64,000 bases of DNA from Nonomuraea sp. NBC_00507. GTDB lineage: Bacteria > Actinomycetota > Actinomycetes > Streptosporangiales > Streptosporangiaceae. The DNA lies in NCBI RefSeq assembly GCF_036013525.1, contig NZ_CP107853.1, forward strand, positions 3,472,001 through 3,536,000, in the 5' to 3' direction. A program made the position numbers and the translations under genes. The notes under the pieces were generated by a model. That model did no database searches. It was not told where the DNA came from and saw only the letters and a list, made by a program, of their open reading frames with translations. Below are positions 7,608-13,602 of the stretch, piece by piece. Each line of letters starts with the position of its first letter. Positions within the stretch are counted from its first letter, which is position 1.

Positions 7608-7651
7608 GATGTAGTACTCTGTTTGGAGTGGTTTGAACGTAGTACTACATC
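7608..7651. promoter_or_regulatory. TetR-type operator between divergent genes
   Basis: GATGTAGTACT (7608-7618) and AGTACTACATC (7641-7651) are perfect 11-bp inverted arms 22 bp apart. The right arm also contains a self-palindrome GTAGTACTAC (7639-7648). The arms sit between the starts of the DHFR-like gene and the TetR gene, so one or two repressor dimers bound there could close both promoters. Confidence 0.75.
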
Positions 7652-7665
7652 TGGAGTGGTGTCAA

Positions 7666-8238
7666 GTGCGGAGCAATCCCGAGCGGCGGCAGGCGCTGAT
7701 CGACGCGGCCATCGAGGTGTTGGCCAGGGAGGGGGCGCGGGGGCTGACCTTCCGGGCCGTCGATGCGGAGGCGGCGGTGCCCCCGGGCACGGCTTCCAAC
7801 TACTTCGCTAACCGCGACGACCTGTTCACCCAGGTCGGCGGACGCATCTATGAGCGGTTGCTGCCCGACGAGGCCACAATCGCCCGCAGCCGGGAGGGCG
7901 TGCAGGACCAAACCCGCTATTCCGAGCTCATGCATGAACTGGTGGATCGGGTCTCCGCCTTCAACTCCGGCTACCTGGCCCTGCTCGAGCTCCGGCTGGA
8001 GTCCACTCGGCGCCCCGAGCTGCGCGCCGTGCTGACCAAGCGCATCCGCGAGGACATCGACGCCAACATCGGCTACCACGCCGCCTCGGGTCTGCCCGGC
8101 GACTCGACCTCGGTGGTGCTCCTCTACCTCGCTCTGAACTGGCTCATCGTGGAGCGGCTGACGCTGCCCGACATCTTCAGTGAGCAGGAGATCCACGAGC
8201 TGGTGGACGCCGCCGTGCAAAGATCGCTGAATGCCTGA
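7666..8238 (+). CDS. TetR/AcrR family regulator
   Basis: A 190-aa TetR protein. The HTH covers residues 5-50 (RQALIDAAIEVLAREGARGL, then PPGTASNYFANRDDLF). The helical C-terminal ligand domain is of normal length. GTG 7666 is preferred because residue 1 then begins just before the HTH and the operator stays outside the gene. Probably represses itself and the divergent DHFR-like enzyme. Confidence 0.85.
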   Translation: MRSNPERRQALIDAAIEVLAREGARGLTFRAVDAEAAVPPGTASNYFANRDDLFTQVGGRIYERLLPDEATIARSREGVQDQTRYSELMHELVDRVSAFNSGYLALLELRLESTRRPELRAVLTKRIREDIDANIGYHAASGLPGDSTSVVLLYLALNWLIVERLTLPDIFSEQEIHELVDAAVQRSLNA

Positions 8239-8439: not shown

Positions 8440-9441
8440 TCAGAGCCTCACCAGCATCTTGCCGACGTTGCCGCCGCGCATCATGTCCATAAAGGCAGAG
8501 GGCGCCCGCTCGATGCCCTCGGCCACGGTCACCTCGGTGTACAGGGAGCCGTCGGCCAGCCAACCGGCCGCCTTCGCGATCCATTCCGGGAACAGGTGGA
8601 AGTAGGAATTGATCAGCATGCCGCGCAGAGTGGCGTCCTTGGCGGCCAGGATGAACAGGTTGCCCGGGCCCGGCACCGGCTCGGTGGCGTTGTAGGAGCT
8701 GATCGCGCCCACCATCGCGATCCTGCCGCCGTGACGCAGTGCGTCGATGGCCGCCACCAGGTGGTCGCCGCCGACGTGGTCGATGTAGACGTCGATGCCG
8801 TCGGGGGCGGCCTCGGCGAGTTGCTCGGCGAGCGAACCGGCGCGGTAGTCGATCGCGGCATCGTAGCCGAAGTCCTGCACGAGCTTCTTGGCCTTCAGCG
8901 TCCCGCCTGCGGAACCGATCACGCGGGAGGCGCCGAGCTTGCGGGCGAGTTGCCCGGCGATGCTGCCCACCGCCCCGGCCGCCGCCGAGACGAGGACCAC
9001 GTCGCCCTCCCGCACGGGGGCCACCTGGGTCAGGGCCGCGTAGGCGGTCAGCCCGGTGGTCCCTAGCGCGCCGAGCCACGCCTCGGCGGGAGCCAGGGCG
9101 AGGTCGGCGACGGTGACGGCCGCGGCGTCCACCGCGGCGTACTCGCGCCAGCCCAGGAAGTGCACGACGGTCGCGCCCACCGGGATGTCAGCCGAGCGTG
9201 AGGCCACGACCTCGCCGATCGCCGAGCCGTCCAGAGGTTCGCCGAGCTGGAACGGCGGCAGATAGGAATCGGCGTCGTGCATCCGCTCGCGCATGTAGGG
9301 ATCGACCGACATCCAGGTGTTGCGAACCAGGACCTGGCCTTCGGCCAGTTCGGGCAGCGCGGTGGTGACCAGCTCGAAGTTCTCTGTGCCTGGCTCGCCG
9401 AAGGGGCGGGCGGCCAGGTGGATCTCACGGTTCACGGTCAT
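8440..9441 (-). CDS. NADP-dependent MDR oxidoreductase (prostaglandin-reductase type)
   Basis: A 333-aa zinc-free medium-chain dehydrogenase of the leukotriene-B4 dehydrogenase/PTGR type: SVDPYMRERM, GTTGLTAYAAL, SAAAGAVGSIAGQLARKLG for the Rossmann site, IDYRAGS, and a terminal GGNVGKMLVRL. These reduce activated double bonds with NADPH. ATG 9441 has GGAG a few bases upstream. Divergent from the AfsR-type regulator; its upstream region carries the 22-bp element also found ahead of the MDR gene at 12703, so both are probably under that regulator. Confidence 0.85.
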   Translation of the reverse strand: MTVNREIHLAARPFGEPGTENFELVTTALPELAEGQVLVRNTWMSVDPYMRERMHDADSYLPPFQLGEPLDGSAIGEVVASRSADIPVGATVVHFLGWREYAAVDAAAVTVADLALAPAEAWLGALGTTGLTAYAALTQVAPVREGDVVLVSAAAGAVGSIAGQLARKLGASRVIGSAGGTLKAKKLVQDFGYDAAIDYRAGSLAEQLAEAAPDGIDVYIDHVGGDHLVAAIDALRHGGRIAMVGAISSYNATEPVPGPGNLFILAAKDATLRGMLINSYFHLFPEWIAKAAGWLADGSLYTEVTVAEGIERAPSAFMDMMRGGNVGKMLVRL

Positions 9442-9494
9442 GGGGGTGCTCCTCACTCGTGGTGCCTCTGTTTCGGGCCCCACTCTTGACGGGG

Positions 9495-9516
9495 GCGCGC
9501 ACGATCGGCTGGGGGT
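9495..9516 (-). repeat. Copy 1 of a 22-bp promoter element shared by two MDR genes
   Basis: On the minus strand it contains CCCCAGCCGATCGTGCGCG and is identical over 22 bp to 12634-12655. It ends 53 bp before the start of the MDR gene at 9441. CCGTCA follows shortly after, as in copy 2. Likely a binding site of the AfsR-type regulator, or the edge of a duplicated promoter. Confidence 0.75.
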
Positions 9517-9538
9517 TCGCTGCGGGTACCGTGACCGG

Positions 9539-12500
9539 GTGCGATTCGGTGTGCTTGGCCCCCTATGCGTATGGACAGACGACGGGCGGCATGTGCGGGT
9601 CCCCGAGGCGAAGGTCCGGGCACTGCTCGCCGACCTACTGGCCCACGAGGGACGTCCGGTGTCGGCGGACCGCTTGGCCGAGGACCTGTGGGGGGACAAT
9701 CCTCCGGGCAACCCCGTCAACACGTTGCAGACCAAGGTGTCCCAGCTGCGCCGCGCCCTGGAGCAGGCGGAGCCGGGAGGTCGCGAGCTGGTGGCCTTCC
9801 AGGCGCGGGGCTACGTCCTGCGCGCCGACGACGTGGACGCCGCCCGTTTCGTCGCGCTGCTCGACCGCGCCCGCGCCGCCACCGATCTGCGGGCGAAGGC
9901 GGAGCTGCTGGCGGATGCGCTGGCCCTGTGGCGCGGTCCCGCCTACGCCGACTTCGGCGACGAGGAGTTCGCCCGTACCGCCGCCACCCGTCTGGAGGAG
10001 CAGCGCCTGACCGCGCTGGAGGAGTGGGCGGAGGTACGGCTGGAGCTGGGCGAGCACAGCCTGGTGACCGACGAGCTGGGCGAGTTGGTGGCCGCGCACC
10101 CGCTGCGTGAACGCCTGCGCGCCGCCCACCTGCGCGCGCTCTACCGGTCGGGACGTCAGGCAGAGGCGCTGGCCGGGTACGACGACCTGCGGCACCGGCT
10201 GGCCGACGAGCTGGGCCTCGACCCCGGACCCGAACTGGCCGCGCTCCACCAGGCGATCCTGCGCCAGGATCCCTCGCTCGCGCCCCCGCGCCCGCGCACG
10301 AACCTTCCCGCTCCCCTGACCGGACTGATCGGCCGCGAGCTGCCCGTGGCCGAGGTCGGTGCCCTGCTCGGCTCGGCGCGTCTGGTCACGCTGACCGGTC
10401 CGGGCGGTGTCGGCAAGACCAGACTCGCCCTGGCGGTCGCGGACCTCGCCGTCGACGCCTTTCCCGACGGGGTGTGGCTGGTCGAGCTGGCGGGCACTTC
10501 GGGCGAGACAGCGACCGTGGCCGAGGTGGTGGCCGCCGAGCTGGACGTCCGCGACGACACGGCGACCGGTTCGCGTCCCGGGGTGCGCCCGGCCGGCCTG
10601 GCGCACCGGCTCGCCGACGCCTTGCGCGGCCGCCGGCTGCTGCTCGTGCTGGACAACTGCGAGCACGTGGTCGAACCGGTCGCCGAGCTGGTGGACCTGC
10701 TCCTGCGGGCCGCCCCCGACCTGCGCGTGCTGACCACGAGCCAGGAGCCGCTGGCGCTCCCGGGGGAGACGCTGTACGTGGTGCCGCCGCTCGAGCTTCC
10801 GGCGCCCGGAGCCGATCCGGCGCTGGCCGCCTCCGTGCGGCTGTTCGTGGCCCGTGCTGCGGCCGCCGCGCCCGGGTTCGTGCTGGACGAGGTGAGCGCG
10901 CCCTCAGTGGCGGCGATCTGCAGGAGGCTGGACGGCCTGCCGCTGGCGCTGGAACTGGCCGCCGCCCGGGTACGCGCGCTGGGCGTGCGCGGGGTTGCCG
11001 ACCGGCTGGACGACCGCTTCCACCTGCTCACCGTCTCGGGCCGGGGACGGCCTGCCCGCCAGCAGACCCTGCGCGCGGTGATCGACTGGAGCTGGGAGCA
11101 GCTCACCGAGCAACAGCGGCTGATCCTGCTACGGCTTGTCGTTCACCCGGGAGGCTGCACGCTGGAGGCAGCCGAGGCGGTGTGCGCCGGCCCCGGACTG
11201 GACCCTGGCCTAGACGTCGCAGACCTGCTGGACCAGCTGGTGGCCAGGTCGATGGTCGAGTCCTCCGACGGGAACCGCTACCGGCTGCTGGAGTCGATCT
11301 CCGCCTACTGTCTGGAACGGCTCGCCGACGGCGACCCCGTCTTCCAGCGCCGCGACCTCTACTACACCGAGCTGGCCGAGCAGGCGAGGCCCCACCTCTA
11401 TGGTCCCGCCCAGCGCCCATGGCTGGACCGTCTGGACACCGAGGCGCCCAACCTGCGGGCCACCCTCGAGCACACCACCGACCACGTGCTGGCACTGCGC
11501 CTGGTCGACGCCCTGGCGTGGTACTGGTACCTGCGCGGCAGACACCGCGAGGGCCGCGCCTCCATCGCCACGGCCATGGCGCTGCCCGGCGCGGAGTGCT
11601 CCAGGACGGCGGCGTGGGAGGCCGGGTTCGCGATGCTGACCGGCGACGGCACCGACCTGCTGCTGCGCAGCCGTGCCGCAGCGCAGGCGCTGGACGCCCG
11701 CGACGCACGATCACGCTGGTTCCTGGCCTTCGCGCACCTGAGCTTCGGGGACGCCGCCACCGCCGAGGGCCTGCTGACGGAGGCGCTGGCCGGATTCCGC
11801 GCCGTCGGCGACCGCTGGGGCGAGGCGGCGGCGCTGGCGGGCCGCGCCAAGCAGGCGATGTTCCAGGGCGACCACGCCCTCGCCGAGCGGTCCGGCACCC
11901 AGAGCCTGGCGATCTTCGCTGAGCTGGGCGATGGCTGGGGACGGCTGCAGGCCTCTGACATGCTCGGCTACCTCGCCGAGATCACCGGCGACTATGAGCG
12001 GGCCGCCCGCCTGCACCGCGAGGGCCTGCGCATCGCCGAGGACCTGAGGCTGTGGACCGACGCGTCCTATCGGCTGTCCGGCCTCGGCCGGCTCGCCCTG
12101 CTGACCGGGGACATGGACGGATCCCGGGAGCTGCATGAGCGGGGAATGCGCCTGGCGGCCGAGCAGTCCAACAGCTTCGCCGAGGAGTTCGCCCGGGTGG
12201 GCCTCGGCCTCGTGGCCCGCCGCGCCGGCGACCTCGACACCGCGGAGCGGCTCTTCCAGCAATCAATGGCCTGGAATCGCCGCCTGGAAGCCGACTACGG
12301 CGTGCCCTTCTACGGGATGACGCTGCTGCTGGCCGAGCTCGGTTTCATCGCCGAACAGCGCGGCGACCTTGCCACGGCCAGGTCGCTGCACCTGGAGGGG
12401 CTCGCCACGGCCCGAGAGGTCGGCGATCCGCGGGGCATCGCCCTGGCCCGGGAGGGGCTGGCCGGGGTCGCGGCGGCCGAGGGTGCCTACGAGGAGGCCG

Positions 12501-12634
12501 CGGCCCTGCTGGGTGAGGCCACCGCGCTCAGGGAGTCGGTCGGCGCACCCCTGCCGCCCGCGGAACGCGGCGACGTCGACCGGATCACCGCCGCCGTCCG
12601 CGCAGCGCTGGGCGGGGAGGCGTCCGTGCGCTGA
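9539..12634 (+). CDS. AfsR/SARP-type regulator: OmpR-like HTH, BTAD, NB-ARC ATPase, TPR
   Basis: A 1031-aa regulator. Residues 1-92 form the winged helix (MRFGVLGPLCVW, SADRLAEDLWG). Residues 98-245 are the BTAD domain. The NB-ARC/STAND ATPase begins near 260 with Walker A GPGGVGKT (287-294) and Walker B LLLVLDNCEHV. From about 600 to the end are TPR helices. STAND proteins act as ATP-driven, signal-gated activators. GTG 9539 starts exactly at the domain; a TACCGT -10-like hexamer lies seven bases upstream. The gene sits between two MDR oxidoreductase genes with identical upstream elements, which are its probable targets. Confidence 0.9.
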   Translation: MRFGVLGPLCVWTDDGRHVRVPEAKVRALLADLLAHEGRPVSADRLAEDLWGDNPPGNPVNTLQTKVSQLRRALEQAEPGGRELVAFQARGYVLRADDVDAARFVALLDRARAATDLRAKAELLADALALWRGPAYADFGDEEFARTAATRLEEQRLTALEEWAEVRLELGEHSLVTDELGELVAAHPLRERLRAAHLRALYRSGRQAEALAGYDDLRHRLADELGLDPGPELAALHQAILRQDPSLAPPRPRTNLPAPLTGLIGRELPVAEVGALLGSARLVTLTGPGGVGKTRLALAVADLAVDAFPDGVWLVELAGTSGETATVAEVVAAELDVRDDTATGSRPGVRPAGLAHRLADALRGRRLLLVLDNCEHVVEPVAELVDLLLRAAPDLRVLTTSQEPLALPGETLYVVPPLELPAPGADPALAASVRLFVARAAAAAPGFVLDEVSAPSVAAICRRLDGLPLALELAAARVRALGVRGVADRLDDRFHLLTVSGRGRPARQQTLRAVIDWSWEQLTEQQRLILLRLVVHPGGCTLEAAEAVCAGPGLDPGLDVADLLDQLVARSMVESSDGNRYRLLESISAYCLERLADGDPVFQRRDLYYTELAEQARPHLYGPAQRPWLDRLDTEAPNLRATLEHTTDHVLALRLVDALAWYWYLRGRHREGRASIATAMALPGAECSRTAAWEAGFAMLTGDGTDLLLRSRAAAQALDARDARSRWFLAFAHLSFGDAATAEGLLTEALAGFRAVGDRWGEAAALAGRAKQAMFQGDHALAERSGTQSLAIFAELGDGWGRLQASDMLGYLAEITGDYERAARLHREGLRIAEDLRLWTDASYRLSGLGRLALLTGDMDGSRELHERGMRLAAEQSNSFAEEFARVGLGLVARRAGDLDTAERLFQQSMAWNRRLEADYGVPFYGMTLLLAELGFIAEQRGDLATARSLHLEGLATAREVGDPRGIALAREGLAGVAAAEGAYEEAAALLGEATALRESVGAPLPPAERGDVDRITAAVRAALGGEASVR

Positions 12635-12655
12635 CCCCCAGCCGATCGTGCGCGC
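12634..12655 (+). repeat. Copy 2 of the 22-bp promoter element
   Basis: Identical over 22 bp to the reverse complement of 9495-9516. It overlaps the last base of the AfsR-type gene's stop codon and ends 47 bp before the MDR gene at 12703. Same orientation relative to the MDR gene as copy 1, with CCGTCA again shortly downstream. Confidence 0.75.
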
Positions 12656-12702
12656 GTTCCGTCAGGGTCGTGCCCGTCACCCACTGATGGAGGAGTAACG
12701 CG

Positions 12703-13602
12703 ATGCGAGCCCTGACCTTCAAGCCGGACCTCTCCTTGGATGTCGTGCCCGACCCGGTGCCCACGCCCTCCCAGGCGCTCGTCCAGGTTGCGGCGTTCTC
12801 GCTCAACTTCGGCGAGATCGCCTACACAAGCGCGAACGTCCGGCCCGGGCACGTGCCGGGCTGGGATGCCGCCGGGGTGGTCGTCCAGGCCGCCGCCGAC
12901 GGTTCGGGCCCTGCCGCCGGCACCCGCGTGGTCACTTTCGGCTGGTCGGGGGCCTGGGCGGAGCTGCGCGCCGTGGACACCGCCGAGCTGGCCGTCGTTC
13001 CCGCCGCCGTCGACCTGGGGCCGGCCAGCGCCCTGCCGGTCGCCGGAGTCACGGCGCTGCAGGCGGTCCGCCGGCTCGGGCCGGTGGCGGGCCGCCGCGT
13101 CCTGGTCACCGGGGCGTCCGGCGGCGTCGGCCGCTTCGCCGTACAGCTCGCCGCCCGTGCTGGAGCGCATGTCGTCGCCTCCGCCGGCAGCCCCGCCCGC
13201 GCGCGGGGCCTGCGTGAACTGGGCGCCGCGGAGATCGTCATCGGTCCGGAGAACCTGAAAGGCCGCGTGTACGGCGTGCTGGACAACGTAGGCGGGCGGC
13301 AGCTCGCGCAGGCGTTCTATCGGCTGGAGGACGACGGCGTGGTGATGGCCATCGGACGGGCGGCCCGCGAGGCCACGGTCATCGACTTCGAGCTCGCGGG
13401 CACGCGATCGGCGCGGGGGCGGATCGAGAACTTCAACGTGACCACGCCGTTCGGCCCCGACCTTGCTCACCTGGTCGGACTGCTGGCGGCCGGCGAGCTG
13501 GACGTGCAGGTCGGCTGGCGCGGGCCGTGGGACAAGGCGATGGAGGCCGCCGATGCCCTGATAGCCCGCCGCGTCGCCGGAAAAGCGGTCCTCGACGTAT
13601 GA
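12703..13602 (+). CDS. MDR family oxidoreductase (quinone-reductase type)
   Basis: A 299-aa zinc-free MDR protein: N-terminal GroES-like domain (SLNFGEIAYT, PGWDAAGVVV) and Rossmann domain with VTGASGGVGRFAVQLAARAG. Short for the family but complete. Start ATG 12703 follows GGAGGAG. It lies downstream of the AfsR-type gene but has its own upstream element matching that of the MDR gene at 9441. Substrate unknown. Confidence 0.85.
   Translation: MRALTFKPDLSLDVVPDPVPTPSQALVQVAAFSLNFGEIAYTSANVRPGHVPGWDAAGVVVQAAADGSGPAAGTRVVTFGWSGAWAELRAVDTAELAVVPAAVDLGPASALPVAGVTALQAVRRLGPVAGRRVLVTGASGGVGRFAVQLAARAGAHVVASAGSPARARGLRELGAAEIVIGPENLKGRVYGVLDNVGGRQLAQAFYRLEDDGVVMAIGRAAREATVIDFELAGTRSARGRIENFNVTTPFGPDLAHLVGLLAAGELDVQVGWRGPWDKAMEAADALIARRVAGKAVLDV

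Follow-up and report, generated by a model that had tools for sequence, protein, structure and literature searches.

We analysed a 64,000-nucleotide window of the Nonomuraea sp. NBC_00507 genome (RefSeq assembly GCF_036013525.1, contig NZ_CP107853.1, positions 3,472,001 to 3,536,000), in which two identical copies of a 22-bp box flank a gene for an AfsR-type large SARP. Each copy precedes a gene for a medium-chain dehydrogenase/reductase (MDR), here called MDR1 and MDR2. The box is most probably the operator of the regulator encoded between its copies, which would control a small reductase regulon. The box lies at a fixed place beside orthologous regulators, is retained at reductases distant from them, keeps a constant spacing to a -10-like hexamer, and has a 22-bp format built on 11-bp units. 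For these reasons, computation supports the two-reductase regulon under the AfsR-type regulator that a preliminary description of the locus had proposed.

The 22-bp box and its promoter layout

Direct reading of the sequence confirmed both exact copies of the 22-mer ACCCCCAGCCGATCGTGCGCGC given in the preliminary description, one on the minus strand (9495-9516) and one on the plus strand (12634-12655). Copy 1 consists of the halves ACCCCCAGCCG and ATCGTGCGCGC, and lies 5' of MDR1 and 22 nt from the start codon of the regulator. Copy 2 lies 5' of MDR2, and its first base is the final base of the regulator stop codon TGA (12632-12634). The box stands 53 bp before the ATG of MDR1 (9441, minus strand) and 47 bp before that of MDR2 (12703), as previously given. 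The weaker similarity said to continue beyond the box was also found, with 43 nt at 77% around the two copies. The CCGTCA reported to follow both boxes is present, but its register is off by one: at MDR1 it comes 2 nt past the box and at MDR2 3 nt past it. The element that keeps its register at both copies is a -10-like hexamer, which stands 7 nt past the box: AAGAGT at 9482-9487 (minus strand) for MDR1 and CAGGGT at 12663-12668 (plus strand) for MDR2.

A further 11-bp unit, ACCCGCAGCGA, occupies 9517-9527 on the minus strand, in tandem with the first half of copy 1, with which it shares 7 of 8 leading bases. It extends onto the first base of the -10-like hexamer of the regulator itself, TACCGT (9527-9532, plus strand), which lies 6 nt 5' of the GTG start and predicts a leaderless transcript.

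The box is rare. A scan of the window with the 19-mer of the preliminary description gave the two exact matches and one match with three mismatches, and at least three matches were reached in 0 of 100 shuffles. The whole genome (12.9 Mb, 2 contigs) contained two exact copies of this 19-base core, none at one mismatch and six at two mismatches. Matches with up to three mismatches numbered 66, against 46 for a reversed-pattern control; since this excess is only modest, the looser matches are mostly background. Thus, a chance origin of the two boxes, already considered very unlikely, was ruled out by the shuffles and by genome-wide rarity, and the element is not scattered across the genome.

To measure the spacing, we used 33 MDR1 and MDR2 loci, including those of the window, and picked boxes by mismatches alone (at most five), ignoring the hexamer. 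A box was found in 16 of the 33 loci. In all 16 promoters, the two of the window included, NANNNT stood exactly 7 nt after the box, with CANNNT in 14; the other spacers in the range 0 to 15 each had NANNNT in none or one of the 16. Among the MDR2 loci, 8/11 had the box, and it was weak or absent in G032, G005 and the first copy of G006. A similar box with the 7-nt spacer was also present in L019 and L097, followed by the same first codons, and in the corresponding gap of L096.

We also compiled 32 boxes, requiring [CAG]ANNNT at +29 of all of them and, for named loci and the window, at most three mismatches; selected unnamed loci contributed their best match with up to eight mismatches, or up to four for the regulator-side boxes of G031 and G006. 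Several genomes contribute more than one box, and the hexamer requirement excluded the G006 regulator-side box with a 6-nt spacer. Mean entropy was lowest at the 8+8 leading positions (0.25 bit), followed by the three that end each unit (0.67), the bases upstream (1.23) and the spacer (1.41). As the set was chosen by similarity and hexamer, the conservation of core and hexamer is partly due to selection of the boxes.

Conservation beside the regulator and at distant reductases

In the named genome collection, the closest orthologues of the regulator were found in four Nonomuraea species (88-92% identity). In nine of the ten best orthologue loci (L011-L020), the 22-mer occurred with at most two mismatches 22 nt before the regulator start, and the tenth (L019) had a 5-mismatch box farther upstream. 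The loci that keep the box include those of Actinomadura spongiicola, Streptomyces abyssomicinicus and Antribacter gilvus. Across L011-L020 the bases on the reductase side of the box diverge while the box itself is retained, which indicates constraint on it. The second box before MDR2 was present in L011, L012 and L013.

Moreover, in five loci (in G031, G289, G006, G008 and G267) the box preceded an orthologue of MDR1 or MDR2, while the sequence retrieved around it contained no orthologous regulator. MDR1 of G031 and of G267 had one mismatch, MDR2 of G289 had two, and the second MDR2 of G006 and MDR2 of G008 had four each. In G031, one contig carries the regulator together with an FMN reductase (exact box) and MDR2 (box with five mismatches), while MDR1 is on another contig, with no regulator match in 18 kb. 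G289 has the box ahead of an FMN reductase that is followed by MDR1; the MDR2 of this genome has a 42%-identical regulator relative about 8 kb away and a contig end about 1.1 kb past the gene. The hexamer after the box of the second G006 MDR2 is GAGGCT, and the G267 box is about 0.2 kb ahead of MDR1.

A regulator of 68-74% identity is encoded elsewhere in the genomes of G289, G006, G008 and G031. Besides, MDR2 of G023 (L226) and MDR1 of G006 (L224) retain the box beside a fragmented regulator, and each genome has a full-length one elsewhere. Judging from these promoters, the box travels with the reductases and not with the regulator alone, and in relatives the predicted regulon can take in an FMN reductase.

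For further sites, we searched with the pattern ACCNNCAGC-N4-CGTGCG-N10-CANNNT. The own genome gave one exact match (MDR2) and six one-mismatch matches including MDR1; the other five all lay away from relatives of MDR1 and MDR2, one of them (L174) within a 31%-identical relative of the regulator. With up to two mismatches there were 82 matches against 70 for the control, near background. CANNNT at the 7-nt spacing was absent from the eight next-best 19-mer matches examined (L003-L010).

Across 250 genomes of the family, the pattern had 28 matches in 23 genomes, and the reversed control had 17. Fifteen of the 28 fell at the regulator, at MDR1 or MDR2 relatives or at related regulators (L205, L208), part of them by construction, because the pattern was drawn from known boxes, some in G000, G006, G012 and G018; the other 13 were elsewhere. 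By reading only, the neighbour of L205 is a transporter. In L208 (G166), a 64%-identical regulator has a 4-mismatch box before a divergent MFS transporter, apparently leaderless. A one-mismatch 19-mer ending in GTGAGCG that recurs in 12 congeners was set aside, as seven inspected loci belonged to one conserved stretch unlike the box system.

The operator model and its alternatives

The regulator (9539-12634, plus strand; 1031 aa) has Trans_reg_C at residues 25-94 and BTAD at 99-241, a central NB-ARC/AAA region and C-terminal TPR as in large SARPs; Trans_reg_C, BTAD, NB-ARC and TPR_12 all scored above Pfam cut-offs. It matches the AfsR chains 8k60 (E 2.8e-56), 8jke (1.9e-55) and 8hvr (6.2e-43). 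However, it is not an AfsR orthologue: with the NCBIfam equivalog model SARPRegAfsRStmc it reached 249.8 bits, against a cut-off of 1430.

The closest precedent is AfsR at the afs box of the Streptomyces coelicolor afsS promoter, with the same domain order (OmpR-type DNA-binding, BTAD, NOD/NB-ARC, TPR). In the account of this complex in PMC10936776, the afs box is 22 bp long, consists of two 11-bp repeats, overlaps the -35 region and is followed by the -10 element CACTGT; AfsR binds it as a side-by-side dimer whose contacts fall in the first 8 bp of both repeats, and the 3' repeat is 8 bp from the -10 element. The box studied here likewise has 22 bp, an 11-bp register over the -35 region and a weak CANNNT-type -10; its 7 nt to the hexamer (16/16 promoters; 6 nt in L099) compare with the published 8 bp, a figure that depends on how the repeats are delimited. 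The two systems differ in box sequence, the AfsR repeats being given as CGTT(T/C)ATCGNN in PMC10972967, and in their targets, here predicted to be reductases. According to the same paper, AfsR integrates Ser/Thr kinase signals globally, whereas the scans of the present genome gave only two good boxes. The cluster-situated large SARPs that it mentions, such as PolY and RslR3, also act on nearby genes, and the SARP sites it describes are direct repeats overlapping the -35 region; their targets are antibiotic clusters instead of reductase genes (PMC10972967).

MDR1 (8440-9441, minus strand) encodes a 333-aa MDR reductase with ADH_N_2 and ADH_zinc_N, whose best NCBIfam match was a curcumin/dihydrocurcumin reductase with a score under the model cut-off. 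MDR2 (12703-13602, plus strand) encodes a 299-aa MDR reductase of the zinc-binding-dehydrogenase type with ADH_N and ADH_zinc_N, resembling quinone reductase and acrylyl-CoA reductase under the NCBIfam cut-offs.

Divergently encoded local regulators of MDR reductases, usually of the TetR, MarR or MerR family, share an intergenic operator with their target. The arrangement at MDR1 is similar, with the regulator divergent from its predicted target and a probable operator in the intergenic region that they share, but the protein is a SARP, about 1000 residues long, and the box is afs-like. A full-text literature search, in which most subscription papers fell outside and part of the matches were judged by titles and abstract openings, retrieved no SARP controlling such reductases.

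By analogy with AfsR, we assume the same mode of DNA reading. Each 11-bp unit would take one DNA-binding/BTAD protomer, as in the afs box, and a side-by-side pair over the -35 region would bring RNA polymerase to the weak -10 hexamer, which lies 7 nt beyond the box. MDR1 would be driven from the left box and MDR2 from the right one. Binding by the regulator is deduced from protein family, box format and co-occurrence, and activation by polymerase recruitment over a weak -10 from the AfsR precedent. The left box and the third 11-bp unit would overlie the predicted leaderless promoter of the regulator, in the opposite direction; because this unit overlaps TACCGT, the layout points to autoregulation, probably of the negative kind. 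Through its NB-ARC/TPR part, the regulator would make its activity depend on a signal, and from the enzyme families of MDR1 and MDR2 we guess that this is plausibly a reactive carbonyl, enone or quinone removed by the reductases.

Several findings weigh against this model. The box was absent within five mismatches in 17 of the 33 reductase loci: ten were MDR1 homologues of 59-71% identity (eight beside more distant regulators), four were MDR1 of 77-79% not immediately adjoining the regulator, and three were MDR2. G032 MDR2, 76% identical, had no recognisable box (best match at nine mismatches), G005 MDR2 had only a 7-mismatch box, and at the regulator-side box of G006 (L099) the spacer is 6 nt. 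One in-frame TGA interrupts the closest relative of the regulator in G267 (73%; C2:7911302-7914178), which is on the same contig as the boxed MDR1 and 3.6 Mb away; a 63%-identical relative with an open frame lies 3.3 Mb away.

The fine structure of the box also leaves points of doubt. The two halves of the 22-mer are poor repeats of each other (3/8 leading bases alike), and the adjoining unit at 9517-9527 is a better tandem partner of the first half than the second half is. Positions 4, 5, 12 and 13 vary too among the 32 boxes, so the entropy contrast between contacted and uncontacted positions is modest. Of the 12 DNA-contacting AfsR residues named in PMC10936776, five are identical in the regulator (W74, P79, T88, S91, R94) and K95 is R, but six are changed non-conservatively or in kind (S46E, Q48K, S80G, Q81N, R87Q, R92Q); some changes are expected because the box sequence differs from that of AfsR, although this is not proof.

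We also sampled 80 related regulator loci (L011-L090), whose starts are those of tblastn alignments and not annotated ones. In favour of the model, tandem similarity at lag 11 before CANNNT, at the spacing found here, occurred in 18 of the 80 upstream regions, against a mean of 2.5 over other cells; one base shorter gave 20, slightly above, and the entire lag-11 row was raised. The test therefore fixes the 11-bp lag and not the exact spacing. Finally, repression by the regulator, rather than activation, is possible.

A duplicated promoter, with recent copying having placed the MDR1 promoter before MDR2 so that identity reflects descent and not shared control, had been one alternative of the preliminary description. 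It would account for the 22-bp identity and the weaker similarity over 43 bp, but we consider it improbable. MDR1 and MDR2 are not recent duplicates: they have different N-terminal Pfam domains, and an alignment of MDR1 with the G031 MDR2 covers residues 88-304 at only 32% identity. The two boxes are no longer identical in relatives (three bases differ in G007, for example) yet retain the core and the 7-nt spacing, and the box is weak or absent in three of the 11 MDR2 loci but within five mismatches in the other eight. The second box may stem from copying, but selection seems to have retained it.

We give an equally small chance to the box being the operator of another protein, with the SARP merely co-located. 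A TetR-type gene (7633-8238) ends about 0.2 kb past the end of MDR1 and makes a ready candidate, but tblastn with its product (E up to 1e-8) found nothing in 41 regulator loci with flanks of up to 3 kb, and these loci are defined by the SARP itself. The 11-bp format and -35 placement are those of SARP sites, and the genome has only two good sites, which also bears on a wider-acting regulator as the binding protein.

The other alternative raised earlier, that the copies are the terminal inverted repeats of a regulator-carrying mobile element, is very improbable, as is an invertible segment. The inverted arrangement of the copies, close on either side of the regulator gene, would suit both, but this open reading frame, the single gene of the interval, fills it and contains no transposase or recombinase domain that we could find. 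Single partnerless boxes exist, some of them at a distance from the regulator. The orientation of the regulator towards its targets is the same in the window as in all six related two-box loci examined (L011, L012, L013, L098, L099, L230), and a -10-like hexamer accompanies the box at constant distance.

For one large SARP beside reductases, the model thus supplies a concrete operator, a small set of targets and a promoter layout that stays constant. It would make the sensor function of NB-ARC/TPR approachable through a simple two-promoter readout, and the layout of box, 7 nt and hexamer suggests a rule for target prediction in related regulators.

Related large SARPs and neighbouring genes

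In the 80 related loci, TANNNT was found 6 or 7 nt ahead of the aligned start in 70, and a Shine-Dalgarno-like motif upstream in none. With this position and no such motif, related large SARP genes apparently are leaderless as a class.

Divergent open reading frames were found in 77 cases, and 61 were scanned after leaving out 16 as likely wrong frames; four of the 61 were replaced by MDR1 coordinates, and some remaining frames are possibly wrong. They comprised 18 imine-reductase-like enzymes (NAD_binding_2 and RedAm-like_C), 11 members of the MDR1 family (ADH_N_2), eight MFS transporters and five FMN reductases (FMN_red). Redox enzymes thus represented 34/61 of the divergent neighbours scanned.

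On balance, we lean towards placing the regulator within a large and little-charted branch of AfsR-like SARPs of actinomycetes, with several members per genome, leaderless genes and 11-bp box codes of their own. Most of these would locally switch exporters and NAD(P)H-dependent redox enzymes, such as MDR reductases, imine-reductase-like enzymes and FMN reductases, and not antibiotic clusters, with box and regulator separable and small regulons in trans.

Upstream of the regulators in L022 and L034 there are ACCCAAAG-type units, and their recognition helix reads TLQTR, where the regulators of L011 and L013-L020 read TLQTK. A box-helix code is possible from this difference.

Near neighbours scanned with Pfam in the window were the TetR-type gene, the two reductases and one gene without a Pfam match. 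Outside the window, the same genome has a second divergent pair (L161, G000:C1:3388012-3389010), in which the regulator is 61% and the MDR1 65% identical to those of the window. By reading, different units, of CCCAAAG and CCCGAAG types, stand there ahead of a -10-like hexamer.

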